Origin: Labyrinthula sp. Ha
Taxonomy: Eukaryota; Sar; Bigyra; Labyrinthulida; Labyrinthulaceae
Length of the DNA: 64,000 nt
Assembly (NCBI GenBank): GCA_015227615.1
Contig: JAALGZ010000059.1
Span: 102,050-166,049 of the forward strand
Reading direction: 5' to 3'
The notes under the pieces were generated by a model. It was given only the letters and a program-made list of their open reading frames with translations, ran no database searches and had not been told where the DNA came from. How positions within the stretch are numbered: position 1 is the stretch's first letter; the number at the start of each line of letters is the position of its first letter. The position numbers were made by a program, and so were the translations under genes. Below are positions 10,494 through 57,070 of this stretch, one piece after another.

Positions 10494-11321
10494 TTATAAT
10501 TCATCTCCTACTGACATCCATCCTTTCCGCAAAATGTTTTTCCTGCACAACAGAACTAAATATTGTACCTTGGCATTGAAACACCCCTCAATCAGCTCAT
10601 ATATTTCTTTAGGCTTTCTAAAAGTCCATGTACTAGGAGCCATTAAAATTTCTTTACCAAAGTTACCTTTCTCCAAATTCACGGGTAACTCACCTTTTTC
10701 ACATATGAACAACTCTTTTATACCCTGCAATGCCATATTTGCTAACGTATAACGCACTTTCCCATTACGCTTAGTCTTCGTCCATAGCACATGATTTATA
10801 TATTTCAACCGCCATTTCTCCAAACATTGGAATATGATGTCTCTCTTGCCCCAAAATGTCCAAATAAAAATCAACGTGTTCCTTGCTGCCCTATAAAAAT
10901 TCAACTCTAAGAATTTTCTATCTTCCACTTGATTGACGTTATCCGCCGGACACCTTATAGAATTCCCTTTACAAAACTAATGTGGGGGATCTAGCATAAT
11001 TACATCAAAAGCTGCCCCTTTGTAATCATTCAATAATTCAAACATATCCCTCTTAATGCTCACCGAATCTGCAGATATTGTGCACCTATAAACTCTTACC
11101 CTTCTTGTTTCCAAAATGATTGCATTATTACAAACCCCACCTCCAATTTTTATTCCAGGTACTCGACATGTCATATTTTCCATTACTATCTGTCCCATCC
11201 TTATCAATTCGTATATTCTATGAAGTTTCTCCATATCCTCCGTTATCAAGCTGCTCTGTTTCATCTGATCGAGAACTCGCGTTCTCAACATCTCTAGCTC
11301 CACAATAGAATCACTAATCAA
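10494..11321 (-). pseudogene. gypsyA1 MT-A70-type adenine methyltransferase (broken by one stop)
   Basis: Two minus-strand segments in one frame, 11321-10977 and 10928-10494, separated by a TAG directly after the motif DPPH (canonical DPPW, DPPY in gypsyA2). The first carries the lead-in strand AAFDVIMLDPPH. The second shows the MT-A70 order: a strand with IFIWTFWG, the W-T-K-x-x-R-N-G-K block, RKPKEIYELIEGCF and the final RKGWMSVGDEL. MT-A70 enzymes (METTL3/14/4, ciliate MTA1) transfer methyl from SAM to N6 of adenine. The family assignment rests on several motifs in correct order; the stop makes this copy a pseudogene unless read through. Confidence 0.75.
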
Positions 11322-16880: not shown

Positions 16881-16885
16881 TGGGG

Positions 16886-17184: not shown

Positions 17185-17187
17185 AGA

Positions 17188-20499: not shown

Positions 20500-20730
20500 T
20501 GTTACGGTTTGATACCTTTTTTATGAATATCTCTTATTTATATTTCGTTATTTACATTTACACCGCGCCACGTCATTGGTTTACATAAGTAGTTAGAGAA
20601 TACACACTTTTAAGTTATTAAGGGTAACACAAAGAAGAACAAGTTTTTATATTTTACGTTTACCTCTACACGACTGCTACTCGGCCGAGTCTAGAGAAGA
20701 GTATATTTACTGGACGGAAAACTCTCAATA
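20500..20730 (+). repeat. gypsyB 5' LTR
   Basis: Starts tgttacggtttgatacc, ends aactctcaata. Direct repeat of 27315-27545. Confidence 0.9.
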
Positions 20731-20740
20731 TTGCAATATT
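20727..20740. promoter_or_regulatory. Palindrome at 5' LTR/internal junction, gypsyB
   Basis: AATATTGCAATATT, a perfect 14-nt palindrome beginning four bases inside the LTR, at the primer-binding position. Confidence 0.5.
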
Positions 20741-20812
20741 TGTTTTTGTAGAAACGAAGTTGTGCGAGGTATTTGTCTTTTGTCAAAGAACTGATCTTGG
20801 TGTTCACTAGCT

Positions 20813-21791
20813 ATGGCTTCCTTGTTTGGATCTCCTAGTAATAAGGGAGATAATAGTGAGAGGAGGAACTTAAATAATGCCCAGATAACTCGCTTAATCA
20901 AAGAGGTGTCTGAACAGCAGGCTAATCAGATGGCGGGTGTATTGAAAACACTAGTTACGTCTTTTAAAGACTTTAGTTTAGTAAAACTGGATGAGCTAAA
21001 TAGTTTGAATGTTGGAGATATAGAAGATTTTCTATTTCAATATGAAAGGCTTACTGAAGAACAGAAGAACCTTATTTCTGTAGCTCAGAAGTTATCTAGA
21101 AAATTATCTCAATACTTGAAGTTTTTAGGAAAGACCGATACAGATCAAGACATCATTAAGTATTTAAAAGAAAAAGTTCAACAAGAGAAGACAAAAGATT
21201 TAAAATCTACTGAAGATTTAATTAAAAAAATATATTTATTTTAATGAAGATATTCTTGAAGAAGAAGCAATTGTCATTATGTTTAAAGAGGTGGATGAGT
21301 TATTGGAAATTATGCCACCAGGGGCTAAAATGAAGCCCAGACTTATTGCTAAAGATATCTTCGAGAAACTTCCTGACTATGGGTGGGTAAGAAAGGAAGA
21401 CCTGAGGCTTAAACCAGAGTTGAAGCAGAAGAATATAGATACTTTAATGGATTATGTTCTCGATAGCCTACCACCTCTCCATGTTAGATCTAGGTTCAAA
21501 TCAACGAATAAGACGAAAACTAAGAAGCTAAAACCTAAGGTTAAAGTTGAAGCCGTAGATAATATGGGTCAAGATATGCCAGCTGAGTTATTAATTGCCA
21601 GCTTATGCAGCCATCGTTACGAATATGGCCATAAGGAAGCTAAATGTTTTGCGAAAAGAAATGGGAATCCGAAGTCTGTTATCCCAACTGAGCCAGAGCT
21701 GAGGCAAAAGTGGGAAAATATAAGAAGAGAAGAAGGGAAAAAGGTCGGCGAAGAAATTTGCTGCCAAAGTTGGGGGTCAATCGGATGGTAA
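20813..21791 (+). pseudogene. gypsyB gag (frameshifted)
   Basis: First frame 20813-21244 starts with an ATG (MASLFGSPSNKGD) and is helical and charged; after a stop, 21279-21791 continues in another frame with MFKEVDELLEIMPPGAKMKP, KLPDYGWVRKEDLRLKPELK and a Lys-rich segment. Near its end a stretch with Cys and His (SLCSHRYEYGHKEAKCFAK) approximates a CCHC knuckle (C-x3-Y...GH...C). This is the capsid/nucleocapsid part of the polyprotein. At least one frameshift separates the pieces. Confidence 0.65.
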
Positions 21792-21947
21792 CATCTCCAA
21801 ACCTAAAAGCCAACAAGATATTAATGGCAAAGAAAATATCGCTGAATCTGTGCCTTCTGGGCAGCTGTTGGAACCAGCGACAGATATCGAGTTTTTACTG
21901 GTCAAAAAGCTGTTAGAAGAACTCTTTTCAACCCTAAGAAACTAAAT

Positions 21948-22270
21948 ATGATAAAAAGTACAACAGTACTCAAGCCTAACTTGATCCCTGCTGGTCATAT
22001 TTATGATTATAGTGAATTAGATGAGGATGCAGAAGTTGAAGTGTATTTTGAAGAAGGTGGAGAAAAATACACAGCACTATTATATAGTGGAGCTTTTAAA
22101 AGTGCTATGAACCTGCGTCTCGGAAAATATTGTTCAAATACAATCACTCTTAATAACGCATTTGCTATAAAAGTTGCTGGTGGAAGGATTTATTAGGTAT
22201 TTGAACTTGGTATTTTAGCCAAGGTTATTGTTCGTTTAGATGGTGGCTTCTACACTTTCACGAACGTTGA
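21948..22270 (+). pseudogene. gypsyB aspartic protease, catalytic Asp lost
   Basis: The frame contains ALLYSGAFKSAMN at the active-site loop, where D-S-G-A is expected; the Asp codon GAT has become TAT. After a TAG at 22194-22196 the frame continues with GGFYTFTNVECMLMDVPQWD and IIGNDQLRTHG, the C-terminal hallmark of retropepsins. Protease activity is not expected. Confidence 0.65.
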
Positions 22271-22274
22271 ATGC

Positions 22275-24119
22275 ATGCTCATGGATGTACCCCAATGGGA
22301 TGATTCGATCATAGGTAATGATCAATTAAGAACTCATGGGTTGGATCCCTTAACGTCTCTGAGGCAGAAACTTAATAATAAGAAGAAAAAGTTTAACGAA
22401 GTTCAGAGCGGAAATGCTATTGAATATTGGGCCAGCTGGCTTGAGGAAACTCTGAATTTAGAAGAAAAAACTATTCAAGTTGAAGATGCTTCAGTAGAAC
22501 CGAGAGGTGTATTTTATATTGATCAGGATGATGTTTTCTACGATGCTTTGTCTGATAATTTTTATTATGAAAAAGATATTTTCTATGACTCTTTAAATAA
22601 AAAAGAAACTCAATTTGCATCTATCAATGAACTTATTTTGCCGAAAGAATTGATGAAGAAAGATCCAGTGATTTTTGCTGAGCAAGATGATGAGGTTAAT
22701 TTCGAAATAATAGATGAAGGGGCAAACCTAGACATAAGTTCAGAAGAAGATATAAGACGTTTAACTAATATTTTAGAGGATAAAGTTGGGAGCTTAAATT
22801 TAAAGTATTTTGACAATGATTTAAGTAGGAAAAACGAACTTCTAGATTTATTAAAAAACAATGTGAGAGCATTTGGGGATTCAGAGTCACCTACTTCTCT
22901 CTCCAATTTAACTCCTATTGAGTGTGAACTCAAAGAAGGGAGAAGTGTTGGGGTCTTGAACCAACACCCCTTAGGATATGAGCAGGAGAGTTTTTTATTG
23001 AAGAGGATCCAACAAATGTTGGATGCTGGGATTATCGAGGTTAATCCAAATCCTACAACGGCCATGAGTACTTTAGTAGTACCTAAAAAAGGCCCTAAAA
23101 AGTTTAGAATGGTTGTAGATTTCAGGCCTCTCAACGATGCTACAAAAAAAGTTACTAATACCTTACCTAAATTAGAACTACAATTACACAGAGCCCAAGA
23201 CATGAACTATTTTTCATCTTTTGATTTACTTTCTGGTTTTGACTATTTACGTTGTGACAAAGCTGCTGGGAGTCTGTTTACTTTTGTAACTTCATGGGGA
23301 GTTGCATACAGCTTTAAGGGTGCACCACAGGGTTGGTGCAACACCCCGGCTCTTTTTAGTATGAGGCAAATTCATCAGGTACTAACTCCTGTTGGATTGT
23401 GGCCTAAAAATAGTATGAAGTGGATAGGTGACACTGTTCTTATGTCTCCAACGTTTGAAGGTTTATTAAAAATACTGGAAAAATATTTAAAGCAGATACA
23501 AGCTCGTAACTTGAGGATTAACATCCAGAAATGTAGTTTTATTGATAATAAGGCGACCTTTTGTGAAAGAGTTTTGAATGGCAAAGGATATAATTATGAT
23601 ATTACTTATGCTACGAAGCTCTTAGAAAGAGTTAAGCCTCAATATATGCACGAGCTTGCGCAATTTGTGTATAGGGCTAATTTTTTATGTGGAATTATAC
23701 CTGAGTTTTCTAGGATAAGAAAATTAGTACTTGGTGATTTCAAATTAGGTGGTAAGTTAAAGAACCTTGAAAGAAAGCGTTTATTAATAGAGTGGACTTC
23801 AAAAATAGAAGTAGCTTTCATTGAACTTAAAGAAGCTTTGAATAAAACTCTAGTTAGCTCTTTGGGTTATTATAACCATAATGAAAACATCCATATTTTC
23901 GCTGATGCAAGCGATAAATATTGGAGTTTATATTTATGTCAAACTCCTGACGACGTTGAAATCGAGAACCCTCTTAAAGCAAGATACAGAGTTATTCCCC
24001 TTAATAGTGGAAGCTTTGGAGGTAGCCAGCTTAACTGGCATGTTTCTTCTAAGGAACTTTACCCGATGGCAATGGCCTTAAAAAAAACACCCTTACTATT
24101 TATTATTCAATTCTCATGA
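22275..24119 (+). pseudogene. gypsyB reverse transcriptase/RNase H, mutated active site
   Basis: A 614-aa frame. Residues 1-25 complete the protease; RT follows with KKFRMVVDFRPLND (~276), motif A FSSFDLLSGFDYL (Asp317), motif B FKGAPQGWCNTPALF (~347-361) and motif C WIGDT at 383-387, where gypsyC has WIDDT: the first metal-binding Asp is Gly. RNase H begins near residue 535 with IHIFADASDKYW and KELYP. The frame ends near a run of A at about 24082, where a single-base indel moves the rest (FTDHRNLV, then 24148 onward) to the next frame. Confidence 0.8.
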
Positions 24120-25125
24120 AAAAATTTTATTCACTGACCACCGTAACTTGGTTGGAATCATTGAACCTAAAGAAGTTAAAACAAAAGCTTATGCTAGTCG
24201 TTTGGGGAGATGGAGCGTAGACTTCATGAGCATAGGATTAAAAGTTTTCCATTTAGATGGGGATAAAAACATTCCAGCCGACTGTTTGTCGCGCTGGATG
24301 AACCCTGATTATATTGAAGAAAGTGAAAAAGAAAAATATATTTCTAGAATAAATAAAATACTTAGTATAAACTCCTCTTGGGATGAAGCTGAATACTGGA
24401 AAAACGTTAATTCTTACCACATTAGTATGAGACATCCAGTGCATGATGCTAAGCCTCCTGCTAGTAATTGGCAAGTTATGGATGATTTATTTGTATTTAA
24501 ATATCAAAAGAGAGATATTCCTTCACTTATTGAAGTTCTAAAAGAAAATGAAAAAATAGTTTTAACTAGAAGTTTAATTCCAGTAGCTGTTTGCCATGCT
24601 CATTTAGTTTTTAACCATGGGGCAAGAAAGTTTGAATGGAATTATATGGTGAAGAATTATGTAATTAAAGCTGAAGATAAGGAGTTTTTAAATAAAACCA
24701 TTACTAGGTTTAGAAAGCAGTGTATGCACTGCCAAAAGAAATCTTTAATAGTTAGAAGACCCCTAAATATAACCGAGTTTGGGGATAAAGCTCGCAAAGT
24801 TTTGTACGCAGACTTTTTATACATTAATACCCATGGTTGGGTATTAACTTTAATTGATAGTTTGACGAGGTTGACGTTACTAACTTATGCAGAAACTGCT
24901 AACGCTGAGATAGTTGTAGATGCTCTCTGGAGATGGCATTTACATTTTATTCTGGCTGATGAGTTTTTTCTAGTAACTGATCAGGGCAGTCACTTTGTAA
25001 ATACAGTTGTAACTAAGTTTCTGAAAGAAAGTAATGGGTTACATAAAATGACTGCAGCCTACGTTAGTCAAACAGCAGGGACAGTTGAAGTCCAAAATAA
25101 GTCTGTTTTGAAGAACTTAAGATAA
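24120..25125 (+). pseudogene. gypsyB RNase H end and integrase
   Basis: The frame carries the end of RNase H (GDKNIPADCLSRWM), the zinc finger (HAHLVFNHGARKF and CMHCQKKS) and the catalytic core: YADFLYINTHG (first Asp), LVTDQGSHF (second Asp) and TVEVQNKS (Glu). All three acidic residues of the D,D-35-E core are present, unlike gypsyC. A TAA at 25123-25125 interrupts the frame, which continues unbroken afterwards. Confidence 0.8.
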
Positions 25126-25926
25126 TTAGTATCTGAGTTCGGATTAAAAGAGAATCAGTGGCCTCGTATTTTAACTTTAGTCCAAGGGTTCTTGAACTCT
25201 AACCCACTTACTTGTCGTGGATATCATAACAAGTCTCCTTTTGAACTTATTTATGTTGAAGTTGTGAAGTTTGCAACAATAGGATCTGGTAATTTGAAGC
25301 TGGGAGAGAAAGATTTGGATTTTTTGAAACAGGGAAGCGTTGAGTTACCTAAGAAAATTGCAGACTACCAGGAAACAGCATATAAAAAAGGAATTGAGTA
25401 CAGGTATATTGCGAATAAAAGAAGAGGAAAGAGACTTACCCCTATTAAATTTAACTTAGGTGAATACGTCTGGTTGTTGGAGAAAGGTTTAGGTAATATG
25501 CAAAAGGGCAAAAGTCATCCTAGATGGTCTGTACCTTATCAGTTAACGATGCAGATGTCAGAACACTTATTTGAAGTTAAGGATTTGATGGGAAATACAA
25601 AGATCAGGCACACATCTTTATTAGTGCCATTTGCTCCAAGTTCATTCTTACCATCTCCAGACACTACTGTATCTTTTATTTTAGATAAAGGCAAACTAGA
25701 AGTTGACTCTATTGTAGACTTGAAGAAAACAGCAGAAAATGAATTTCTAGTTAGTGTCAAGTGGAGAGGATTTGACAGTGATAGAAACACTTGGGAAGCA
25801 GCAGTTATAATGTATGAAGATATGCCATTAATACTTTTGAAATATCTAGAGAAAAATAATATTCTTGTTAAAGAATTGGTGCAGTTTTTGAAATTATCAT
25901 ATCCTGAAGCTAAATATAGATTTTAG
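25126..25926 (+). pseudogene. gypsyB integrase C-terminus and chromodomain
   Basis: Same frame as the integrase core after one stop. It includes SHPRWSVPYQLTMQMSEHLF (GPY/F-like module) and VKDLMGNTKIRHTSLL. A chromodomain follows near residues 170-225, with EFLVSVKWRGFDSDRNTWEA, which keeps the Trp-Arg-Gly-Phe and Asn-Thr-Trp-Glu elements of the fold. It ends in TAG, after which the frame is open again. Confidence 0.8.
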
Positions 25927-26517
25927 TTGAATTGTGTATTTAGAATGGGACAAGCCCGTGAAATTTTTGAGGATTTAGTGTATAAGCTATTGAGTCAAAG
26001 AATAGTAGTCACTGTTGAAGGTATGATGATTCAATATTCTTGATCTTTGTTTGAAGCTTATATTTTAAAGGTTTTAGTTGCTAAGTTTGGTATGGGAAAC
26101 TTTGTTGAGTTTAAAAAATGGTTACCTGGGAAATCCAAGCAACAAATTTACAATCACCTTCAAAGGTATTTAAGAAGACAAAGCCTAGAACACTTGCATG
26201 GTCTCAAAGTTAATTTAGATGTGGTGAGAAGAAATAATTTAAAGACTGGAAAATATTATTTAAAAAATAAGAAGTCTCTTGATGAGAAAACTAAGTGCAT
26301 GAAGAGATTCTTTAGTGTATGGAGATATGCTGAACAACATATAAAAAACAATAGCAAAAACTTTAAGATGAAACTTGTGGTGTACGATGCATTTTCAATT
26401 GAAGGATTGAAGCAGTTGTATTTTGAAGTTTCTCAAGTGATTGCTGATGAAGGTACTTGGGATAAATATCCTGAGTACAATGGTGATTTGACTGAGTTTA
26501 GACAACAAATTAAGTGA
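25927..26517 (+). pseudogene. gypsyB Myb/SANT-like region
   Basis: The frame resumes after TAG, is interrupted by TGA at 26041 and runs to TGA at 26515-26517. Its core, YILKVLVAKFGMGNFVEFKK then WLPGKSKQQIYNHLQRYL, aligns with gypsyC (LVLKFGIGRFEKYQ, LPHKSVSMIRGYIQQQL). The three-helix spacing with a basic third helix resembles Myb/SANT DNA-binding units. The remainder is helical and charged. Confidence 0.6.
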
Positions 26518-27296
26518 TGTATTAAAGGATATTCTAAACGTTTGCATGATGTTTCAGAAGGTTTTGAAGAACTTAAAGTTATTGTTAAGAATGAATTTGA
26601 GGGAGTTGAAGTCTTCAGTAGAGGATACCAGTTAAAATGGTCCAAAACAATCAACATGGTTCATGCAGTTAATCAAAAACTTAATGTAGAGTTTTATATT
26701 TGGAGAAGACCACTTGGTTCGAGATATATCAATAAGGATGTTCAAGAGTTTAGTTTTAATCAGGAAGAGAAGCCAGATGTTTTCATTGTGGACCTTCCTT
26801 TTAAGATGTTTTCTTCTGATCCTGTAAGAGGACCTAAAGTTGAATACGATGTTTTGGATGATGCTGCTATTCTAAACTTAGATGTTAATGGATTGCCACC
26901 AAATAATATGTGGTTTGTTTGGACTGTATTTAAGAAAAGAGAGCTAGTACTTAAGTGGATGGCAATAAATGGGATAAAATTTCTGAGTAGACTCATTTGG
27001 GTTAAAGTGAATGAAGATGGAAGAATTTTATCTACACTTGGAAATGTTACTGGAGCTTGTACTGAAGAAGTGTTAATTGGTTTAAGAAGACAGTTTCATG
27101 ATACCTTAGAAAGAATATTTATAGGTAAAGAAGTTTTCTATGGAGTAAGAAGAGGGAATTCAGAAAAACCAGTTGAACTTTACCAGATAATTGAGAATGT
27201 TTTCAATAATGATGCTGTTAAATGGGAGTTATTTGGAAGAAATAACAACCTAAGAAGAGGCTGGTTAACTGTTGGGAATCAAGTGGGTTTCTAACT
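26518..27296 (+). pseudogene. gypsyB MT-A70-type adenine methyltransferase, degenerate catalytic motif
   Basis: The 250-aa frame (26542-27294) ends at TAA just before the 3' LTR. Its motif IV is VDLPF (Asp84), where MT-A70 enzymes have DPPW/F, so the first Pro is lost. Other family landmarks are in order: LIWVKVNEDGRI (~151), a decayed E-V-L-I-G block, EKPVELYQIIENVF (~208) and WELFGRNNNLRRGWLTVGNQ at the end, matching the family's L-F-A-R...GW...GNE. Catalysis is doubtful. Similarity to the gypsyA and gypsyC domains indicates inheritance from a common ancestral element. Confidence 0.75.
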
Positions 27297-27314
27297 TCAG
27301 AGATATTGGGGCAA

Positions 27315-27545
27315 TGTTACAGTTCGATACCTTTTTTATGAATATCTCTTATTTATATTTCGTTATTTACATTTACACCGTGCCACGTCATTGGTTTACA
27401 TAAGTAGTTAGAGAATACACACTTTTAAGTTATTAAGGGTAACACAAAGAAGAACAAACTTTTATATTCTACTTTTACCTCTACACGACTGCTACTCGGC
27501 CGCGTCTAGAGAAGAATATATTTACTGGACGGAAAACTCTCAATA
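27315..27545 (+). repeat. gypsyB 3' LTR
   Basis: Starts tgttacagttcgatacc, ends aactctcaata; followed by the target duplication AAAC and the displaced inner TIR end cactcctgt. Confidence 0.9.
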
Positions 27546-27591
27546 AAACACTCCTGTAGAAAGATTAGAGACAAAGCTAAAAAAGGAAATA

Positions 27592-30527: not shown

Positions 30528-30813
30528 TAGATCTAAATCGGGATTTATTCTCTTCGACTAGATAGGCTTCACGTGAATATCAGTCTCCTATTCTTTAACC
30601 AAGCTTGTCTTCAGTTGTTAGTTCCTTCCACAAAGTCTGAATCGTAAACTTAAATCTTATGTTGTATTTTCTTTTTCCTTCTTGATTCTGTTGGATTCTG
30701 ACTATGCCTTTTTTAGTCATTCTATTCCTCCAATCAGATCACTTCTACTAACCAATCATATATCTAACTAATTTATACTAATAATCAATAATGCAGAAGC
30801 TTATAACGATACA
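30528..30813 (-). repeat. gypsyC1 3' LTR
   Basis: On the minus strand it starts TGTATCG and ends AGATCTA. The last codons and the TAA stop of the pol reading frame fall inside its first bases. Confidence 0.9.
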
Positions 30814-32534
30814 TCCCCCTCTTCCCATAAATGCGAGACTCCGCTCTGTCTAAGCACCGCCTGTACCCCAAGACTTCTCATATTTTCATTTAGGTCAGTC
30901 CGGGTTCCAACGTGCAACCATCCTTTCTGTAACCCGCAGATACTAGAAAATAGTTCTATCAAAACTGCATTATCCCCCATAATCCGCTTGATTTCCTTTT
31001 TTACAGTTAGCGGCTTTATTCCAAAATCCGCTCGATCTGCCAATATCACCTCTCGCTTCTTCACCTCTTCCACTTCTACCGATCCTTCCAAGCCGCGTCG
31101 CTTAAAGAAATATAATACTTCGTGCGATCGCTGAAATAATCTTCCTAGAGCTCCTCGTATTTTTTCACGCGGCGTCATCTTTACCCATACCCAGCTATGG
31201 ACAGGATCGTACTCCGACTTATCCATATATTGAAATGCCGAGCACAGCCTCCCCTGCGGGATCCATACCGCCACATAATGCGGCCTCACTTCTCTTATTC
31301 CAAAGTTCATCCAATTTGGATCCCCGCCTGGAATATCTTCTGCACCTCTCCAAGGCGGGTCGGCTAAAATCAGTGTGACTTCCGGCAAATCTAGAGCTCC
31401 CTGACACCAGTTCTTATTGTATGGGTCAAGTGCGTACCACACCTTCTCAGGTGGCGCTATACAGCATTTCAACACTACTTCGCTTTCATCAAAAAGAATC
31501 TCAAATACTCTCCCCGCGCATTGTATGGCGGTAAGTTGTATTTTTCCGCCATAAGATATAAGATATCGCCACTTCGAATCCTGCTCAATTTGGAAGGGGA
31601 TGTTCGTTAAAACTCGCGGCGTCCTGGTCGGCTCTTCATGGCGCTCATATCTTATCCGAAAGCCATTTGCCTCCCATTCCGCCTCCTCGTTCTGCTCGAA
31701 TGCAACTACCATTGTACTTATCATTTTTTCATATACGGCGAGTTTCCTGCATAGCTCCGCCGCAGCTCTAACATAATCGGCCGCCCGCTTTCTATGCTTC
31801 CGCAACTCCGCCGCATACTCGGGTGCAAATTCTTTCGTTATTTCTTCATTAGAAAGTACTAGCGCCTGCTCGCAGTCGGAAAACCGTCTTATACAGCGAA
31901 AATCCATACTACTAATCTTCTCTTTCGACTTCCGCACTTTCTCAATATCCCAATGTTCTCCCCCTATCTCTTCAAGGTCCAGTCGCCCTAATTGCTGCTG
32001 TATATATCCTCGAATCATAGATACGCTTTTATGCGGGAGGTATAACTGGTATTTTTCAAAGCGGCCGATGCCAAATTTAAGCACCAATTTCCTAATTTCC
32101 TGCTTTTCTGCTCTTGTCCATCCTTTGAAGGAGGCTACTTCATATTTTTCTCCTGGTGGCTCCGTTCTTATCTCGGACAAATATTTATGCCATTTCCGAA
32201 AATTTGGCGCCCTTCTTATTACTCGGTCAATCCCATGCTCTACTGTGACAAGCGTCTGTCTTGCTCTCTGCCGCAGCTTGTCTTGGCTAGGTCTGCGGGT
32301 TTTCGCCGATAAATGTTCCGTCAAAATGTTGCGCACATCCTCATACATCGTTTGAATAGGTTCCCAGGTGTTATCTTCCTCGCGGAAGCCCCTCCATTTA
32401 ACTTCTACTACATACTCAGTTAAATGAGGGTCGTACTTTACGTCTCCGAAACCCGCTACTTCTAAATGCTTAAAGTTTCCGACATAAACTTTCCTCAGCG
32501 CTTCCGACGGCACGAATCCGCTCGGCTCATAAAA
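30801..32534 (-). CDS. gypsyC1 pol C-terminus: chromodomain, Myb/SANT-like, MT-A70 methyltransferase
   Basis: 570 aa from 32513, open upstream to a TAG at 32535-32537. Chromodomain at residues ~15-68 (VVEVKWRGFREEDNTWEP). Myb/SANT-like unit at ~128-176 (GWTRAEKQEIRKLVLKFGIG, LPHKSVSMIRGYIQQQL). A linker follows, containing a charged helical stretch at ~200-280, and then the MT-A70 domain at ~375-540: lead strand VTLILADPPW with the canonical motif at 385-388, VAVWIPQG, HSWVWVKM, HEVLYFFKRRG and LIELFSSICG-LQKGWLHVGT. MT-A70 enzymes make N6-methyladenine from SAM. The intact DPPW suggests possible activity. The C-terminus (LWEEGDVSL) is encoded by the polypurine tract and the start of the LTR. 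Confidence 0.88.
   Translation of the reverse strand, partial: FYEPSGFVPSEALRKVYVGNFKHLEVAGFGDVKYDPHLTEYVVEVKWRGFREEDNTWEPIQTMYEDVRNILTEHLSAKTRRPSQDKLRQRARQTLVTVEHGIDRVIRRAPNFRKWHKYLSEIRTEPPGEKYEVASFKGWTRAEKQEIRKLVLKFGIGRFEKYQLYLPHKSVSMIRGYIQQQLGRLDLEEIGGEHWDIEKVRKSKEKISSMDFRCIRRFSDCEQALVLSNEEITKEFAPEYAAELRKHRKRAADYVRAAAELCRKLAVYEKMISTMVVAFEQNEEAEWEANGFRIRYERHEEPTRTPRVLTNIPFQIEQDSKWRYLISYGGKIQLTAIQCAGRVFEILFDESEVVLKCCIAPPEKVWYALDPYNKNWCQGALDLPEVTLILADPPWRGAEDIPGGDPNWMNFGIREVRPHYVAVWIPQGRLCSAFQYMDKSEYDPVHSWVWVKMTPREKIRGALGRLFQRSHEVLYFFKRRGLEGSVEVEEVKKREVILADRADFGIKPLTVKKEIKRIMGDNAVLIELFSSICGLQKGWLHVGTRTDLNENMRSLGVQAVLRQSGVSHLWEEGDVSL
30814..30826 (-). promoter_or_regulatory. gypsyC1 polypurine tract
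   Basis: Minus strand GGGAAGAGGGGGA directly before the 3' LTR start TGTATCG, the usual plus-strand primer position. It is also coding, giving Trp-Glu-Glu-Gly of the methyltransferase tail. Confidence 0.7.
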
Positions 32535-33660
32535 CTATAGCCGACTTCCGTGCACTTCTGTCGTTTTGCCGTCTAGCGTTTTCACTTTGTAAACATTTTT
32601 TGAAACTACTTCTGAGACTTGCGCCGGACCAGACCACTCCAGCGCTAATTTATCGCGCTCTCTTGGAATGCCTTTTGATGATACCAGGCACCAGTCTCCC
32701 TCATTATATTGAAGCAATGCTGGGTCGACGGCTGTCTTTTTCCTTCTATTGTTTAACACCTTCTGATATTCCACATATTTTGCGACTTTCTTTTCGTAGT
32801 CATCTAAGCGCTTTATAAAAGCGGAGCTTAATCTGTATAGAACGTCATCATCGATACCGACCAGCATCCTGGCGCCGCCTCGGATCCTTTCCACTATTGG
32901 CGGAAGACCTGCAGGCTCAATATACTGGCGCTCTGGGTTCACATACAAAAATAATTCATATGCCGTCTGTGCATTCTTCCGACCGGGTAATTTCCGTGAA
33001 GGCACTGGTAACTCATTCATGGCGCCTTGAATTTTATTCAATATTTTTGGCCATTCATCTTCATTTAGTCGGTATTCATTTACCAAACTCTTCAAAAAAT
33101 TCAATACCTTCTTATTCACAACCTCAACTTCTCCGTTTGTCCAGCTCGCATAAGATACCGCGAAACTCTGAGAAAAACGAAGTTCTCTTCTAAGCGCCGA
33201 CATCAATGAATTCGCAAAATGACTTCCGTGGTTCGTTACCAGCGTAAAATCTTTTTCCAGCTTATAATTTGCCGCAAATTTATCAAGCGCCTCTACAACC
33301 GCTTGCGTATCAGGTGTCTTAGTATGTGTCAATTGTGTAAATCTGCTAAAGGCATCCGTTAATACTAAAACATGCCCTATCCTATTCACATATAGAAAGT
33401 CTGCCACTAAAGTTTCGCGCGGCCGCCTGGCTTTCGTCACCAAGCTATAGGTCGTCTTAATCGCCTTTGGGAGTCTGCGACAGTGTATGCAGTTATCTCT
33501 GAATAGGCGGATTAATTCAACCATCTTCTTCCATGCAGTGTCACCTCTTAGTGTGCGCTCCATTGCGGCGGGAATTCTCCACTCAAAATTAGCCGCTTCC
33601 GCTAAGTCCGCTTCAAGAGAACCGTGCTTATTCGCTAAATGTATGTGAACAAGTTGGCGC
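32535..33660 (-). CDS. gypsyC1 integrase
   Basis: 342 aa from 33563, with the frame open upstream to include the zinc-finger histidines (RQLVHIHLANKHGSLEAD); the cysteines are in NCIHC at residues 24-28. The catalytic core has Asp55 (VADFLYV), then VTNHGSHF with Asn111 where Asp is expected, and Glu147 (NGEVEVVNK). The spacing of 35 residues between 111 and 147 is exactly that of D,D-35-E integrases, so Asn111 replaces the second catalytic Asp. The C-terminal GPY/F-like module reads LALEWSGPAQVSEVVSKNVY. The frame is -1 relative to the upstream RNase H frame. Confidence 0.85.
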
Positions 33661-35134
33661 TCCAGAAGCGACGCCGGTAAGATGATTTTACCGACAACTT
33701 CTTAATCCTAGAGGTCCTAGTAATCATCTCCTTTTTCTGCGCCTCAATAACTTCTGCTTCTGTTAGCGGCGCCCAGTCGCCTTCAAAATATGGGTTAAAT
33801 ACCGATACCCTATATTTATCAAGTGTCTTTAGCGACGCATAAATCTTCTTATCCATCTGTTGTTTCGGCCTTAAATGGTTAACTCTTACTGCTATGCTTC
33901 TTATCTTCGCATTCGTGTCGTCTTCATCTTCCGACGTTGAATAAGTATCCGTCTCAATATAGCGCTCCTTTTCTGTGTCGCTAATATCCGACGGAACTTC
34001 AGTCGGCCACGTAGCATAATCCTCTGTCAGCTGTCTCCATTCCTTCTCAGAGTATTCATTCCGAATTTGCCGCTCTACTTCTTTCATGAGGTTTGGCGTA
34101 CCTTCTTTTCGCAGCGGCCTCCGCATAATGCGTCTAGTAATTTGCCGACAACCTGTTAGCGCTGGTCGCACAAAATACTTAGGCGCGATACTCATATCCA
34201 ACCTTTCTATCCATCTCTTTTTTGTCGGTTGCAATAACTCAGGTGTCCAATCTTCAAAATCTCTTTTGATTCTAAAGAATAGGTCTTCATCACCAAGCAA
34301 CGAATTGTCTCTTTCCGTATATATGGATAAAGCATTGAGTACCGCTTCCTGCAGCCAGTCCTTCACTTTATCGTCGCTTTCCTGTCGGCATTTTCCCGAC
34401 ACTCTTCTCAAGCGCTTCATTGCGCGCGGCAAGACGGGTATTTCTCTTTCCGTCTCACACGTCTGCACCTTTATTACGCGCACCGCCGCCCCGACGTCAC
34501 CTTCCGTCGGCGCCGCCCACCTCGTAAGCATGTCTGCGAAAATATTACTATCTCCGTTAACGTGGTGAATATCCACCAACACATGCTGCAGGATTACCAT
34601 CCAGCGTTGCAGGCGGTTAAGATGTCCATGATTTATCTTCGAGCCGCCTTGCAATATAGCCTTCAGGTTAAGGTGGTCTGTATATACTTGCACTGCTGTC
34701 GGGTGGAATGGCAATAAGTACGAAAGTTTATTGAATGTTCGAATTATAGGATATAGCTCCTTATGGCATATACCCCATACAAGTTGACTAGCGTCAAATT
34801 TTCCGCTAAAAAACATCATTGGATAAACCGTCTTTTTTAACAAGTCCTTTCCGCGCTCTTCCTGCCGCGCTTGGAATAGGATGGCGCTGTGGTATTTATC
34901 CGACGCGTCGGTTACTAGGATCAAATCCATGTTCCGATTGTAATGCTGTAGGCGGGCCTTTGCAGCATCCGCCAACCTTTGTTTAAAGCGCTCAAACGCC
35001 TTCTCCAATTCATCGTTCCATAAAATTCGCTTCTTTTCCTTCAGAAGCTTTTTCTTCTTTCCTTTCATCTCTGGGTAAAACAACATAATTTTATCTCGAA
35101 GTTCCGCCATCTCGGGAACTGCCGACGTCAATCA
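33635..35134 (-). CDS. gypsyC1 RT thumb/RNase H and linker to integrase
   Basis: 498 aa following a TGA that interrupts the RT thumb at a position where Trp is expected (HLAQ-stop-LTSAVPEM). RNase H residues are visible: LILVTDASDKYH (Asp), HKELYP (Glu), VYTDHLNL (Asp) and NIFADMLTRW (Asp). A long linker of ~230 residues without a recognised domain follows RNase H before the frame closes at TAG inside the integrase zinc finger region, where the -1 frame takes over. Confidence 0.82.
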
Positions 35135-36643
35135 CTGCGCCAAGTGCAAGAGTTTCGCTAACTCATATACAAACTCAGGCTTTGGAACAAGTAAAATCTT
35201 TTCATAATACTTCTTCGAAAAATTCCATCCGCCGTTTTGTAAAATCCGCCCGCAATACTCAATACCCGTCGTAAATAGTATTGATTTCGTCGGGCTAATT
35301 CTAACCTTCCATTTCCGCAGGTTGCGCAACGCATCTTCTAATATTCTGATGTAGCGCTTAAAATCTTTTGTGTGTATTAACGTATCGTCAATCCATTGAA
35401 CGATTCCGTTGCCTTCTTTATTATAATTTTCCGCCGCAATATGATCCACCATGCGCTGGTGAAAGAATACCGGCGTCGAATGATATCCCATTGGCGCGAA
35501 CTGCAATTGAAATACGCCATATGTCGTCATAAGATTGAAGTACTTCTTCGCACGGTCAGTAATTGCTAACTGGTCAAACCCGCTCACAACATCTAAACAT
35601 CCGCAAAAGCGGGCGGGCGCTGTGTTGACCAGTTGTGTCTCAAGTATAGGAAGTATATTGACATCCCTATGCAATACCTTGTTCACTGCAACCAGGTCCA
35701 ACACCATGCGCCAAGTATTATTTTTCTTAGGTACCGCAAAGACGACCGACCCATAAATCGCTTGTCGGATCTTCTTTGCCATGCCCTTCTCAACCATTCC
35801 GTCTAACTTCTCCTTCACAAACTCCGCCTTACCAGGCCCGAGCGGCCGTGGCGCCGGCATCTTAAATTCTGCCCCTTCTATTGGCACAACATCCATAGGC
35901 GGCAAAAGGCTAATACCTATTTGCGACGCGCTTGTTGCAAAAACATCTTCATACTTGAAGCATAAATTCATGAGCTGGTTGCGCTGGTCTTCGTTAGCGT
36001 CGCCAGCAGCTTCCACCATCTTTGTTATTGCTTCGCGTATTTCCGCCTTTTCCGCTTCTGGCTGATAGAGCGCGTTTCCTTCGGGAAGCATCAACTGCTC
36101 TAAGTTGTCTTCATCGACTACATCTTTATTTTGCTTTAGATGTATGGTCTCCCCGAAAGAGATTCCTTCCGCGTTTCCATCCCGCAAGCGTCTGCTAAAA
36201 TCAATCGACGCTGCGCGGATTGACGGAACGTCGCCAAAGACTTCCATTTTACCGCCCGTTAATTTTCTAATCATTGCCGCTATGCGCAGCCTAGGCAGCC
36301 TTAACCCCGTCAAAAATTGTATATTCTTTGACTTCTGGCGGTTAAGTTTCTGCGCCTTCAAATTTTTCGTAAAGACAAAATATGATTTTACCGCCAGCTC
36401 TCCTTCTGCGCCTTCATCTATAACTTTTATTATTTCAGCTAAAGTATATTCATGTTCCGCGAAGTTAGAAATTGAACCAAGTATTAAATTTAAGTTCAAC
36501 TCAACTACAAATATCTCATGTACTCCAGAAAGTTGTCGAAGCTCCTCCGACCTCAGCGCTTTTATAACTACGGCGCTATCGGCGAAGCAGCTTCGACAAA
36601 CCTTCAGGCACACGGGACCGCTTTCCGCCCCGTTGCCGACTTC
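35132..36643 (-). CDS. gypsyC1 reverse transcriptase
   Basis: 493 aa from 36613, open upstream to the TAG at 36644-36646. A ~230-residue N-terminal part includes the linker from protease. RT then shows NTWRMVLDLVAVNKVLHRD, motif A CGCLDVVSGFDQL (Asp341), motif B FAPMGYHSTPVFF and motif C WIDDTLI with the Asp pair 409-410 intact. Trp in place of the usual Tyr or Phe in motif C is shared with gypsyB, so it is a lineage feature. It ends in TGA within the connection to RNase H. Confidence 0.87.
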   Translation of the reverse strand, partial: EVGNGAESGPVCLKVCRSCFADSAVVIKALRSEELRQLSGVHEIFVVELNLNLILGSISNFAEHEYTLAEIIKVIDEGAEGELAVKSYFVFTKNLKAQKLNRQKSKNIQFLTGLRLPRLRIAAMIRKLTGGKMEVFGDVPSIRAASIDFSRRLRDGNAEGISFGETIHLKQNKDVVDEDNLEQLMLPEGNALYQPEAEKAEIREAITKMVEAAGDANEDQRNQLMNLCFKYEDVFATSASQIGISLLPPMDVVPIEGAEFKMPAPRPLGPGKAEFVKEKLDGMVEKGMAKKIRQAIYGSVVFAVPKKNNTWRMVLDLVAVNKVLHRDVNILPILETQLVNTAPARFCGCLDVVSGFDQLAITDRAKKYFNLMTTYGVFQLQFAPMGYHSTPVFFHQRMVDHIAAENYNKEGNGIVQWIDDTLIHTKDFKRYIRILEDALRNLRKWKVRISPTKSILFTTGIEYCGRILQNGGWNFSKKYYEKILLVPKPEFVYELAKLLHLAQ

Positions 36644-38155
36644 CTATGCATTTTGGTGCGGCATCAATCCCGCTTTTTCCAGCGCGGGAGCACCGACCAG
36701 CAGTTCCTTCCATTTTCTATCTTCTACAAGGAACACCTTCATCCTGCGGAAGTCACACTTCCAAACGCCGCCGATACGTAACTCGAGATCAGTATAACCT
36801 ACTTTAGCTATACGAAGATCCGTTGTTCCGTCGGCTAACGTGATCCTCTCCTTCACATCCTCTACAACATCCATCATCCATGCATGCTTGTGAAGTGAGG
36901 CCACGCTTTCATCCGCACCACTATCTAGGATCGCGTCGGAAATGCGATCTCTAGATTTGATATGGTGGACGGTGACGTTCTTCCTTTCCGCTCTTCTTAC
37001 CGATACATTAATCCGTCTGGTCGGGTTACGTTTCTCGTATTCGTCCCCCGGCGCCGGAAGCGCTAAAAATGAATTGCGCTGCTTCGGCTTTTTATCCTCC
37101 CTTCTCTCATAACGTCTGTTTTCATAACCGCCCCTATTTTTATACGGATAGTATCCTCCTCTATTCGTACTTCTTCTATATCCGCGAGGGCTGGGGGAAC
37201 GAGACTTACGGCGGTAATATTTGTTGCCGCTTCTATCTCCTTCTCTTTCAGACAATATGGAGTGTCTTCTTTTCTTCCTTCCGCTTCTGTGTGTCCTTTG
37301 CTGAGTTCTTCGCACTTCCGACTCTCGTGGCGCCGCCACTGTCGGCTCGGGCGGTGAAATGTCCACTTCATCCGTGGTGTCCATTCTCCGCTCATAGACC
37401 GACTTAATGAGTTCCTTAAATCTGTTAAGGGAATCGCCGAACTTGGACTTTGGCGCATCCAGTTTCACCTTCAGGCGGGCCTCCCTCATCTGCAATTCCG
37501 TCAGAAGCCGCTTATTAAGCGCTTTTAATACTTCATATTTTTGCGCATTTTCCTTCAGCTGCTTCCATTTTATACATCCCGTGGCGCTGCTCATGTAAGT
37601 GTTTAAACGCTCAAGGAATGGGCCCTCACTCGGCCAAGTCACCTTTTCCGCGATCGTGCGGAGAGTGTCTTCCCCTTCATATGCTTCATGTTCCGACATA
37701 TACTTGCGGAGATATTCAACAAATCCCTCCTTCGTCACTCCTGCGTTGTAGAGGCTCTGTTTGAGTTCAGGGTCGACATGGATCCATAGATTCGGCTCCT
37801 TTTCTTTTCCGTATACGTCCAGGTAAGCCTCGCGCATATCTAACATGGCGCGGATATCTTTTACCTTTAGTGCTTTTAATGTTTTAAATTTTCCGCCGTA
37901 GGATCTCCACGCCCGATCGCGGCGCGCGTCTTCCGCCCTCTGTTTCTGAATTTCAGCCGCTTCATCCGTTAGCTTCGGCCCTTTCAGCGCCTGAGTGGTT
38001 GCTTCTGTTAACTTTGCTAGCAGCGTCTCCATTCCGTGCACCCTTGCCGACAAGGTAAAAACACTCTCCTGCGTTGCTTCCGCCAGCGACCTCGTTTCCG
38101 CGAAGTCGGAAAGGGTTCTTCCGTGAGCCGGCGTTGACTTAGGTGTTGGCGGTGT
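36644..38155 (-). CDS. gypsyC1 capsid, Arg/Gly-rich nucleocapsid-like region and protease
   Basis: 469 aa from 38053 in a frame open upstream. Residues ~1-230 are helical and capsid-like (GGKFKTLKALKVKDIRAML, ALKALNKRLL type helices). Residues ~255-345 are basic and rich in Arg, Ser, Gly and Tyr (RRKSRSPSPRGYRR, NRGGYYPYKNRGGYENRR) instead of a CCHC knuckle. The aspartic protease occupies the last ~100 residues, with ILDSGADES (Asp377-Ser-Gly intact) and ITLADGT. Confidence 0.8.
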   Translation of the reverse strand, partial: TPPTPKSTPAHGRTLSDFAETRSLAEATQESVFTLSARVHGMETLLAKLTEATTQALKGPKLTDEAAEIQKQRAEDARRDRAWRSYGGKFKTLKALKVKDIRAMLDMREAYLDVYGKEKEPNLWIHVDPELKQSLYNAGVTKEGFVEYLRKYMSEHEAYEGEDTLRTIAEKVTWPSEGPFLERLNTYMSSATGCIKWKQLKENAQKYEVLKALNKRLLTELQMREARLKVKLDAPKSKFGDSLNRFKELIKSVYERRMDTTDEVDISPPEPTVAAPRESEVRRTQQRTHRSGRKKRRHSILSEREGDRSGNKYYRRKSRSPSPRGYRRSTNRGGYYPYKNRGGYENRRYERREDKKPKQRNSFLALPAPGDEYEKRNPTRRINVSVRRAERKNVTVHHIKSRDRISDAILDSGADESVASLHKHAWMMDVVEDVKERITLADGTTDLRIAKVGYTDLELRIGGVWKCDFRRMKVFLVEDRKWKELLVGAPALEKAGLMPHQNA

Positions 38156-39103: not shown

Positions 39104-39856
39104 CTAAACATTCTTACTCCGACCTTTCGCAATTACCCGCTCGAGGTTAGTCGACTCATCAATATTAAGCGCCCCATCACTTGAGGCGGCTTCATCTTCT
39201 AGCGCCGCGGTCGGCGATGCCGGCTCGACCTCCTGCGTCGCTGTCATAGGTTGCGTCAAATCTAGAACATCCGCCTCCTTTTCGGCGGCGGCGGATATTC
39301 TTTCCGCCTGATCTTCTATGGCGGCAACTTCACTTTCCGCTTCATTCTCCACCCTGGCGGCTGAACTTTCCGCCTCATCCTCCGCTCCGGCGGGCAAATT
39401 CTCCGCCTCGCTCTCTGATTCGGATCCAAGCATCGCTTCAGCTACCGCGTCTGGCTTGGGGTCATCCTGACCCGGCGCTCCTGTCACGACGCGGTTAGCC
39501 TTGTTCTTCGTCTTCCCAGCCGCCGCTACTTGGGCGACTTCTTGGCTGTTGTTCTCCGCCTCAGCTCCCGCTTGGGCGGCTAAATTCTCCGCCTCGCTAT
39601 CTTCCGCTGAATCTTCCGCCTCGTCGGCTGACGGTAAATTAAGTGACTTGCGCAGTGCGGCGCGCTTCTCGTCACTCAATTCGTCAGTCCGACCTTCTTC
39701 TCCTTCAGCACTTCCTTCCGACGATGAGTCAGCTCCGAAGAGCTCCTCATTTTCATCCTCATTCTCCTGCTCTCTTCTTATCCTCTCTGCTTCCTTCTCC
39801 TCTAGCTCGCTTTTCTTCTCTCTATTTGCCACCCTCTGTTCTCTAGATAACGGCAT
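39104..39856 (-). CDS. gypsyC1 gag N-terminal acidic region
   Basis: 250 aa starting MPLSREQRVANREKKSELEE, preceded by a short leader after the 5' LTR. A basic helix gives way to a very acidic Glu/Ala/Ser-rich region with imperfect internal repeats of the type AEDEAESSAARVENEAES. gypsyC2 lacks 11 codons of this repetitive part. Such an N-terminal extension is not typical of Ty3 gag; it may be disordered. Confidence 0.7.
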   Translation of the reverse strand: MPLSREQRVANREKKSELEEKEAERIRREQENEDENEELFGADSSSEGSAEGEEGRTDELSDEKRAALRKSLNLPSADEAEDSAEDSEAENLAAQAGAEAENNSQEVAQVAAAGKTKNKANRVVTGAPGQDDPKPDAVAEAMLGSESESEAENLPAGAEDEAESSAARVENEAESEVAAIEDQAERISAAAEKEADVLDLTQPMTATQEVEPASPTAALEDEAASSDGALNIDESTNLERVIAKGRSKNV

Positions 39857-39882
39857 TCTAATTTCCTTGTATACGCCTCTCG

Positions 39883-39898
39883 TATTGAAATTTCAATA
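39883..39898. promoter_or_regulatory. Palindrome at 5' LTR/internal junction, gypsyC1
   Basis: TATTGAAATTTCAATA is a perfect 16-nt palindrome at the primer-binding position, equivalent to those of gypsyA and gypsyB. Confidence 0.5.
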
Positions 39899-40182
39899 GA
39901 TCTAAATCGGGATTTATTCTCTTCGACTAGATAGGCTTCACGTGAATATCAGTCTCCTATTCTTTAACCAAGCTTGTCTTCAGTTATTAGTTCCTTCTAC
40001 AAAGTCTGACTCGTAAACTTAAATCTTATGTTGTATTTTCTTTTTCCTTCTTGATTCTGTTGGATTCTGACTGTGCCTTTTTTAGTCATTCTATTCCTCC
40101 AATCAGATCACTTCTACTAACCAATCATATATCTAACTAATTTATACTAATAATCAATAATGCAGAAGCTTATAACGATACA
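39897..40182 (-). repeat. gypsyC1 5' LTR
   Basis: 286 bp; four mismatches to the 3' LTR noticed by eye. Same sequence as the gypsyC2 5' LTR at 56025-56310 in inverted orientation. Confidence 0.9.
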
Positions 40183-42620: not shown

Positions 42621-42654
42621 TATTTTCTTTTTTTGCTTTGTCTCTAATCTTTCT

Positions 42655-46144: not shown

Positions 46145-46147
46145 TCT

Positions 46148-46444: not shown

Positions 46445-46460
46445 CCCCAGGATTACAATA

Positions 46461-51417: not shown

Positions 51418-51441
51418 AAGACGAATGAAGCTAAGAGATAT

Positions 51442-52006: not shown

Positions 52007-52834
52007 TTGAGTAGTGATTCTACTGTGGAGCTAGAGATGTTAAGAACGCGATTTTGTGATCTGATGAAACAGAGGAGCTTGATAACGGAGGATATGGAGA
52101 AACTTCATAGAATATACGAATTGATAAGGATGGGACAGATAGTAATGGAAGATAAGCCATGTCGAGTAGCTGGAATACGAATTGGAGCTGGGGTATGTAG
52201 TAATGCAATCATTTTGGAAATAGGGAGGGTAAGAGTTTCTAAATGGATAGTATCTGCAGGTTCGGTGAGCATTAAGAGGGATGTGTTTGAATTATTGAAT
52301 GATTACAAAGTGGCAGCTTTTGATGCAATTATGCTAGATCCGCCATATTAGTTTTGTAAAGGGAATTCTATAAGGTGTCCGGCGGATAACGTCAATCAAG
52401 TGGAAAATAGAAAATTCTTAGAGTTGAATTTTTATAGGGCAGCAAGGAACACGTTGATTTTTATTTGGACATTTTGGGGCAAGAGAGACATCATATTCCA
52501 ATGTTTGGAGAAATGGCGGTTGAAATATATAAATCATGTGCTATGGACGAAGACTAAGCGTAATGGGAAAGTGCATTATACGTTAGCAAATGTGGCATTG
52601 CAGGGTATAAAAGAGTTGTTAATGGGTGTAAAAGGTGAGTTATCGGTGAATTTGGAGAAAGGTAACTTTGGTAAAGAAATTTCATTGGCTCCTAGTACAT
52701 GGAATTGTAGAAAGCCGAAAGAAATATATGAGCTGATTGAGGGGTGTTTCAATGCCAAAGTACAATATTTAGCTCTATTTTGCAGGAAAAACATTTTGCG
52801 GAAAGGATGGATACCAGTAGGAGATGAATTATAA
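52007..52834 (+). pseudogene. gypsyA2 MT-A70-type adenine methyltransferase (one stop)
   Basis: Two segments, 52007-52351 and 52400-52834, in the same frame, separated only by TAG right after DPPY (52346-52351 region). The domain otherwise runs complete: AAFDAIMLDPPY, LIFIWTFWGK, VLWTKTKRNGK, a decayed E-L-L-x-G-x-K-G block (IKELLMGVKGEL), RKPKEIYELIEGCF and RKGWIPVGDEL. Apart from one codon this is a recognisable full-length MT-A70 domain, indicating that it was long maintained in the gypsyA lineage. Confidence 0.78.
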
Positions 52835-56024: not shown

Positions 56025-56310
56025 TGTATCGTTATAAGCTTCTGCATTATTGATTATTAGTATAAATTAGTTAGATATATGATTGGTTAGTAGAAGTGAT
56101 CTGATTGGAGGAATAGAATGACTAAAAAAGGCACAGTCAGAATCCAACAGAATCAAGAAGGAAAAAGAAAATACAACATAAGATTTAAGTTTACGAGTCA
56201 GACTTTGTAGAAGGAACTAATAACTGAAGACAAGCTTGGTTAAAGAATAGGAGACTGATATTCACGTGAAGCCTATCTAGTCGAAGAGAATAAATCCCGA
56301 TTTAGATCTA
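56025..56310 (+). repeat. gypsyC2 5' LTR
   Basis: Starts TGTATCG after CTAG; ends AGATCTA, overlapping the palindrome tattgaaatttcaata (56309-56324). Confidence 0.9.
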
Positions 56311-56350
56311 TTGAAATTTCAATACGAGAGGCGTATACAAGGAAATTAGA

Positions 56351-57070
56351 ATGCCGTTATCTAGAGAACAGAGGGTGGCAAATAGAGAGAAGAAAAGCGA
56401 GCTAGAGGAGAAGGAAGCAGAGAGGATAAGAAGAGAGCAGGAGAATGAGGATGAAAATGAGGAGCTCTTCGGAGCTGACTCATCGTCGGAAGGAAGTGCT
56501 GAAGGAGAAGAAGGTCGGACTGACGAATTGAGTGACGAGAAGCGCGCCGCACTGCGCAAGTCACTTAATTTACCGTCAGCCGACGAGGCGGAAGATTCAG
56601 CGGAAGATAGCGAGGCGGAGAACAACAGCCAAGAAGTCGCCCAAGTAGCGGCGGCTGGGAAGACGAAGAACAAGGCTAACCGCGTCGTGACAGGAGCGCC
56701 GGGTCAGGATGACCCCAAGCCAGACGCGGTAGCTGAAGCGATGCTTGGATCCGAATCAGAGAGCGAGGCGGAGAATTTGCCCGCCGGAGCGGAGGATGAG
56801 GCGGAAAGTTCAGCCGCCAGGGTGGAGAATGAAGCGGAAAGTGAAGTTGCCGCCATAGAAGATCAGGCGGAAAGAATATCCGCCGCCGCCGAAAAGGAGG
56901 CGGATGTTCTAGATTTGACGCAACCTATGACAGCGACGCAGGAGGTCGAGCCGGCATCGCCGACCGCGGCGCTAGAAGATGAAGCCGCCTCAAGTGATGG
57001 GGCGCTTAATATTGATGAGTCGACTAACCTCGAGCGGGTAATTGCGAAAGGTCGGAGTAAGAATGTTTAG
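56351..57070 (+). CDS. gypsyC2 gag N-terminal acidic region, 11 codons shorter
   Basis: 239 aa; identical to 39856-39104 except for an in-frame 33-bp deletion (residues LAAQAGAEAEN of the other copy) between repeats of the motif EAEN. Slippage or recombination between the repeated units explains it. Confidence 0.7.
   Translation: MPLSREQRVANREKKSELEEKEAERIRREQENEDENEELFGADSSSEGSAEGEEGRTDELSDEKRAALRKSLNLPSADEAEDSAEDSEAENNSQEVAQVAAAGKTKNKANRVVTGAPGQDDPKPDAVAEAMLGSESESEAENLPAGAEDEAESSAARVENEAESEVAAIEDQAERISAAAEKEADVLDLTQPMTATQEVEPASPTAALEDEAASSDGALNIDESTNLERVIAKGRSKNV

Follow-up and report, generated by a model that had tools for sequence, protein, structure and literature searches.

Retroelements carrying cytosine or Dam-like adenine methyltransferases are already known (PMC5890265, PMC6338049). 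KnitGypsy-Dnmt3 of Klebsormidium nitens is, like the elements reported here, a Gypsy-type element with a DNA methyltransferase under purifying selection (Ka/Ks <0.2 there), but it contains a cytosine-5 DNMT3 instead of MT-A70 and a DIRS-like repeat structure, and the accessible part of its description mentions no p1-like partner (PMC5890265). SymbioLINE-Dnmt and SymbioDIRS-Dnmt3 of Symbiodinium likewise reach many methyltransferase-bearing copies per genome (hundreds), but they are LINE and DIRS-like elements with cytosine enzymes (PMC5890265). DIRS elements with a Dam-like enzyme share a retroelement-encoded N6-adenine methyltransferase with the present elements, but this enzyme is of the bacterial Dam-like type rather than MT-A70, and they use a tyrosine recombinase in place of a DDE integrase (PMC5890265 and PMC6338049); the Pfam tables of the present elements showed rve integrase and MT-A70 and no tyrosine recombinase.

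Chromoviruses share with element E3, described below, the LTRs and the order RT–RNase H–IN–chromodomain. Chromodomain Ty3/gypsy elements usually end at the chromodomain, while the present elements extend this plan with p1-like, often protease-like, and MT-A70 parts. The Tetrahymena MTA1c/AMT1 complex (MTA1, MTA9, p1, and p2; PDB 7yi8 and 7f4l) displays the same PSRG-loop MT-A70 and the same p1 Myb domain with C-terminal extension, but it is composed of separate host proteins with no Pol fusion. Double-stranded DNA is methylated by MTA1c and is accommodated by its subunits MTA9 and p1 (PMC11065753), 6mA is enriched at permissive regions in AMT1-bearing eukaryotes (PMC12695648), and MT-A70 families were relatively static in eukaryote evolution, as surveyed in 2025 (PMC12695648). 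Searches of one open-access library, exclusive of bioRxiv and most subscription journals, turned up no retrotransposon described as bearing an MT-A70/AMT1 or p1 domain, and the accessible parts of PMC13297926, PMC12695648, PMC11258239, PMC11441545, PMC8885841, PMC5913717, PMC6545605, and PMC11065753 describe no such element.

Structure of element E3

E3 was a 9.65-kb element on the minus strand of the window (the whole stretch of 64,000 nucleotides analysed, from contig JAALGZ010000059.1 of Labyrinthula sp. Ha), and it was classed as Ty3-type; the RT tree was composed of elements found in this analysis only. It had 286-bp LTRs with 4 mismatches, flanked by the 4-bp target repeat CTAG, and displayed RT, RNase H, DDE integrase, and chromodomain in this order, all above the Pfam cut-offs, with an MT-A70 tail between the integrase and the 3' LTR (Table 1). 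The first-pass annotation had described a Ty3/gypsy element with chromodomain, Myb/SANT-like, and MT-A70 motifs in one frame, continuous with the integrase except for one stop and ending inside the 3' LTR, and this description was borne out: all three domains lay in a single 577-codon frame, one TAG separated this frame from the integrase frame in the same reading frame, and the terminal stop lay inside the 3' LTR, with the last codons overlapping a purine run. The two checks proposed there on the frame itself gave a PF05063 match above its cut-off and a SAM-type Rossmann fold in the predicted model.

Five single stops were located between successive same-frame blocks of E3, and the reading frame also changed on passing from RNase H to IN. 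TAG accounted for five of the six frame-ending stops before the last, and the frames were otherwise long and open. The GC content was 0.466 in E3 (30528–40182), 0.344 in E2, and 0.376 in the window.

Table 1. Features of E3, of other elements in the window, and of related proteins (window positions in nucleotides; protein positions in residues)
Feature	Position	Strand	Basis or remark
5' LTR of E3 (TGTATC...GATCTA)	39897..40182	-	direct repeat, CTAG outside
First gag-region frame of E3, 262 aa, acidic	39107..39892	-	open frame
Second gag-region frame of E3, 315 aa	38159..39103	-	open frame following TAG
Gag end and retropepsin-like stretch of E3 (ILDSGAD)	36647..38155	-	open frame; DSGA motif by eye
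Reverse transcriptase frame of E3	35135..36643	-	PF00078, 58.9 bits
RNase H frame of E3	33638..35131	-	PF17917, 62.7 bits
Integrase frame of E3	32538..33701	-	PF00665, 33.4 bits
Chromodomain, p1-like Myb, and MT-A70 frame of E3, 577 aa	30804..32534	-	Pfam, PDB sequence search, predicted model and fold match
Chromodomain core of E3	32340..32414	-	PF00385, residues 41-65, 25.5 bits
p1-like Myb domain of E3	31920..32126	-	residues 137-205; Pfam Myb sub-threshold
MT-A70 domain of E3	30903..31373	-	PF05063, residues 388-544, 30.5 bits, cut-off 23.9
Purine run GGGAAGAGGGGGA, probable polypurine tract of E3	30814..30826	-	read directly; just before 3' LTR
3' LTR of E3	30528..30813	-	direct repeat
E5, second near-identical copy of E3	56025..64000	+	window end cuts Myb/MT frame
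E2, Ty3-type element with the same tail	20500..27545	+	LTRs 20500-20730 and 27315-27545, 96% pair
MT-A70 frame of E2	26518..27291	+	PF05063, 68.4 bits; DLPF replaces DPPW
MT-A70 remnant of E1, C-terminal part	10494..10976	-	resembles P0019 MT domain by eye
MT-A70 remnant of E4, C-terminal part	52352..52834	+	resembles P0019 MT domain by eye
AAA-ATPase-like / PD-(D/E)XK-like frame, four copies	7625-9787, 27547-29715, 40503-42707, 53679-55709	-, +, -, +	Pfam on one copy
Possible degenerate MT-A70-like domain without catalytic motif	P0015 141-321, P0016 137-317, P0017 119-300		see text

Related elements in the window

Along the 7,976 bases of E5 that fall inside the window, three pieces aligned to E3 at 99.9–100% identity, and since both copies shared the 5' flank, they probably represent a duplicated locus rather than two insertions. 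In E2, the matches to RT, RNase H, Chromo, and MT-A70 exceeded the Pfam cut-offs; the IN match reached 30.1 bits and the Myb match 18.2 bits, both under theirs. A large inverted duplication (7641–20306 versus 43020–55687, with pieces 87–97% complementary) contained E1 and E4 and is either a segmental duplication or an assembly matter. Three of the AAA-ATPase-like frames started within about 150 bp of the 3' LTRs of E1, E2, and E4, in the same orientation.

Genome-wide occurrence of the MT-A70 tail

A PF05063 profile search of the 50.8-Mb assembly (153 contigs) gave at least 150 MT-A70 matches, these being the 150 scored of 354 candidates, with up to 132 bits. Twenty of the best-scoring places, a sample biased to good copies, were examined up to about 8 kb upstream: in 19, the match lay inside an LTR pair (LTR identity 89.9–100%), with the 3' LTR beginning 25–65 bp past the match, and five of the 20 copies had a single uninterrupted frame of 2,278–2,363 aa between the LTRs. 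The proposal of an MT-A70 domain captured by a chromodomain Ty3 lineage, for which a search for other copies had been suggested, gained support from these 19 places. The twentieth, L037 (G000:C91:220767-221270), had no LTR pair and scored 250 bits to Tetrahymena MTA1, and it is probably the host's own AMT1 gene. Open frames of 1,900 codons or more enclosed 27 of the 150 listed matches, and two of these frames were flagged with one internal TGA.

The E3 family comprised 15 further copies covering at least residues 1–573 or 2–577 at 54–90% identity; 11 of them had stops within the match, and the remaining four had none and lay in frames of 617–1,471 codons.

The p1-like Myb domain

The Myb/SANT-like motif of the first-pass annotation could be sharpened to a p1-like domain. 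A nine-row Myb profile including E3 ranked p1 first (E 6e-20) among 177,635 distinct PDB sequences, with the three-repeat SNAPC4 close behind (2e-17). A seven-row extended profile without E3 matched p1 over 140 positions including the C-terminal extension (E 3.5e-27), as against SNAPC4 (6e-10) and c-Myb (4e-6), both over the Myb repeat alone, and p2 (1e-5). The Myb residues 137–205 of E3 by themselves matched Tetrahymena p1 weakly in the PDB sequence search (E 0.16).

The genome was also searched with a 73-residue stretch of Tetrahymena p1, and 150 matches were listed of 316 candidates. Among these, a p1 match lay 523–1,035 bp upstream on the same strand for 103 of the 150 listed MT-A70 matches, as against none on the opposite strand and 0–3 after the p1 hits were artificially shifted; the other 47, including the host-type gene, had no listed p1 match. 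The module of these elements therefore combines a p1-like with an MTA1-like part, and the Pol tail is a p1–MTA1 pair in most of the listed places. From the RT side, 29 Ty3-sized matches were picked by span among 150 listed of 660 candidates: 21 had a p1 match at the expected downstream distance, 16 of these also with an MT match, while the remaining eight may be other elements or fall below the matches listed.

The two best p1 matches (G000:C100:136087-136302 and G000:C1:1284473-1284688) had no listed MT match just downstream and are candidate host p1 genes. A retropepsin-like domain with DSGA lay between the p1-like and MT-A70 parts, and not before RT, in P0010 (about 1941–2037) and P0014 (2190–2302), with Pfam support below cut-off (gag-asp_proteas E 0.048 and RVP E 0.0018, respectively); E3, unlike these two, had its ILDSGAD stretch at the usual place.

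The MT-A70 domain

PF05063 scored 120.3 bits in family A and 109.8 bits in family B, and the Pfam Chromo match of P0010 fell under the cut-off. The family B domain scored 115.6 bits with METTL3 versus 112.9 bits with MTA1. A P(T/S)RG loop was common to MTA1, the host AMT1-like gene, and, in the form PTRG, families A–D, P0014–P0017, L024, L026–L028, and L030 and was absent from METTL3 and METTL14; P0018 (NPVRG), E2 (DPVRG), and P0019 and P0020 (DSIRG) had other variants, and E3 and P0002 lacked the P(T/S)RG loop. This loop sharpens the MT-A70 assignment of the first-pass annotation towards an MTA1/AMT1-like type in the sister families that have it, but not in E3.

DPPW together with the P(T/S)RG loop was kept in families B and C, P0014–P0017, L024, L028, and L030, while the catalytic motif read DPAW in families A and D, DLPF in E2, and DPPY in P0019 and P0020. 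Within the E3 subfamily, the motif position displayed DPPW (E3), DPSV, DSPW, DPPG, and DLAG, so that DPPW was found in one of the five covering rows, and GRLFQRSHEVLYFF was nearly identical across these five rows. The 'canonical DPPW' claimed for E3 was accordingly true as a string but poor evidence of activity, given the subfamily variation, the missing loop, and the very long branch to E3 and P0002 in the MT tree; it was rejected as proof of an active E3. Because of the motif drift of its subfamily and the lost AMT1-type loop, the E3 copy is probably catalytically weak or dead, and its MT-A70 domain probably either serves as a scaffold or non-catalytic partner or is in decay. The predicted E3 model matched the folds of METTL3 and MTA1, METTL3/METTL14/MTA1 chains filling its fold-match list.

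Two other enzyme types were rejected: (i) a Dam-type methylase as in DIRS, since the Pfam tables showed no Dam match, and (ii) a cytosine DNMT, since these tables showed no C5 methyltransferase match.

Relatives from another source

With the family B tail as query, one ENA protein (P0015, 2,015 aa) and three proteins from EukProt were returned; P0015 as query led to P0016 and P0017, with 47% and 39% identity, respectively, over the region searched, and to another three EukProt proteins. P0015–P0017 harbored RT, RNase H, and integrase, a Myb match below cut-off, and an MT-A70 domain that reads DPPW and PTRG, and these three elements may additionally carry an MTA9-like domain near the N-terminus (Table 1). 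The suggestion rests on two comparisons: (i) local hhalign against MT profiles gave 91.5–92.2%, as against 0.1 and 0.4% for the RT and Myb controls; and (ii) a profile of the domain hit back MT domains in other elements, at i-E 3.5e-5 for the best. The domain was weakly supported by global hhalign (68%), by hmmsearch (i-E 0.005, 4.7, and 0.11), and by the PDB search, in which the best match was MTA9/AMT7, the non-catalytic partner (E 0.006, in small separate stretches). No further MTA9-like domain was found in the 20 loci, the returned proteins, or, for E3 and E2, the frames of gag and RT.

Selection and history

The MT domain was under purifying selection in families A, B, and D. The median dN/dS was 0.15 over 51 pairs with dS 0.03–1.2, drawn from 27 distinct sequences of 47 pieces; the pairs were not independent, and the 27 sequences were top-scoring copies including one host gene. 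The ratio was 0.06–0.16 in the 15 pairs with dS >0.2 and reached 0.50 in low-dS pairs. Most of this evidence came from families A and D, DPPW being present only in family B among the three, where dN/dS was 0.05–0.06 in pairs with dS >0.1. For the printed pairs of the 20 loci with dS >0.1, the ranges were RT 0.02–0.14, IN 0.03–0.14, chromodomain 0–0.06, Myb 0.05–0.20, and MT 0.05–0.19, the values for RT, IN, and Myb being similar to those for MT.

The RT and MT trees agreed on three well-supported pairs, namely A with D, B with C, and P0019 with E2, with weak support for deeper forks, and this agreement fits an old capture followed by co-inheritance. In the MT tree, which was unrooted, had no bacterial outgroup, and left out L026, L027, and P0020, METTL3 plus METTL14 split off at 92/91, and AMT1 and most retroelement families fell in one unresolved fork.

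Discussion

The reading we favor, at a probability of about 0.6, is that a chromodomain Ty3/gypsy ancestor captured host p1 and MTA1/AMT1 and that the Pol-borne module methylates DNA adenine in the intact families. The captured genes would have encoded two subunits of the nuclear 6mA-writing MTA1c, namely p1, which binds DNA through a Myb-type domain, and MTA1/AMT1, the catalytic subunit with the MT-A70 domain; both would now follow the integrase and chromodomain as the C-terminal part of Pol. In families with intact domains, the module would be made with Pol, travel along with the integrase, and methylate adenines, probably those of ApT sites, either in the cDNA once it is double-stranded or where the element has just inserted. 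In this way new copies may be marked by the elements themselves, and each would carry from the outset the host signature of chromatin permissive for transcription. The partner required for catalysis might come from the host, from a degenerate sister element, or, in P0015–P0017, from the element itself. DNA is probably the target rather than RNA, because both resembled subunits belong to a DNA-writing complex. As 6mA is concentrated in permissive, transcribed chromatin, a new copy that marks itself could stay expressed, and we give about even odds that the effect falls on the expression of the new copy rather than on integration itself. Several observations count against an enzyme, namely DPAW in families A and D, DLPF in E2, DPPY in P0019 and P0020, and the degenerate E3 subfamily; moreover, MTA1 works with MTA9, yet none of the 20 loci examined in this genome had an MTA9-like domain. 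A more speculative version, which we hold only tentatively, is that some elements are self-sufficient 6mA writers (p1-like, MTA1-like, and, in three, MTA9-like) marking their cDNA or landing site and so hijacking the host mark of active chromatin, with degenerate E3-like families acting as non-catalytic trans partners.

The domain might instead act on RNA in a METTL3-like manner, placing m6A on the genomic RNA of the element during transcription or packaging. The family B domain did score as well with METTL3 as with MTA1, and the E3 model matched both folds, but the fusion with a p1-like part and the presence of the P(T/S)RG loop are indications of the complex that writes on DNA; METTL3 has a CCCH zinc finger, and none appeared among the Pfam matches to P0010, P0011, and P0014–P0017, which makes a role on RNA quite improbable. 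It is also rather unlikely that the module is a non-enzymatic appendage binding DNA or chromatin and guiding integration, its MT fold being kept for structure or dimerisation. Chromodomains are known as targeting devices, families A and D are under selection despite DPAW, and the E3 and E2 families have no conserved catalytic motif even though one stretch is nearly identical in the five E3-family rows; such an appendage is nevertheless hard to square with DPPW plus P(T/S)RG in families B and C and the seven further proteins and loci named above, and with the low MT dN/dS of the DPPW-bearing family B.

For E3 alone, we consider it possible, if doubtful, that this is a decaying copy whose MT-A70 domain has no present role, which would be compatible with the favored capture of p1 and MTA1/AMT1. 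Its five single stops, frame change, and 4 LTR mismatches, the motif variation among its relatives, and the stops in 11 of the 15 further full-length copies are as expected of decay, but the persistence of these copies at 54–90% identity, four of them stop-free, speaks against it. That a host MT-A70 gene merely adjoins the element or was picked up once, as a chance neighbour or an assembly artefact, is almost certainly wrong: the long inverted duplications in the window advise care, but the same architecture recurred in several diverged families and in three proteins of different source, and five of the 20 copies had one frame from LTR to LTR. A host gene beside the element was likewise rejected because the LTRs enclose the domain.

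Here, an MT-A70 domain and the partner that binds DNA have become mobile within a retrotransposon and reach a high copy number. Elements of the cytosine and Dam types pointed to a use of DNA methylation by retroelements to their own ends, and a captured AMT1-type module would tie this idea of self-methylation to the system of 6mA and permissive chromatin. The idea would become testable in this organism, whose genome contains both intact and decayed copies alongside an AMT1-like gene of the host.
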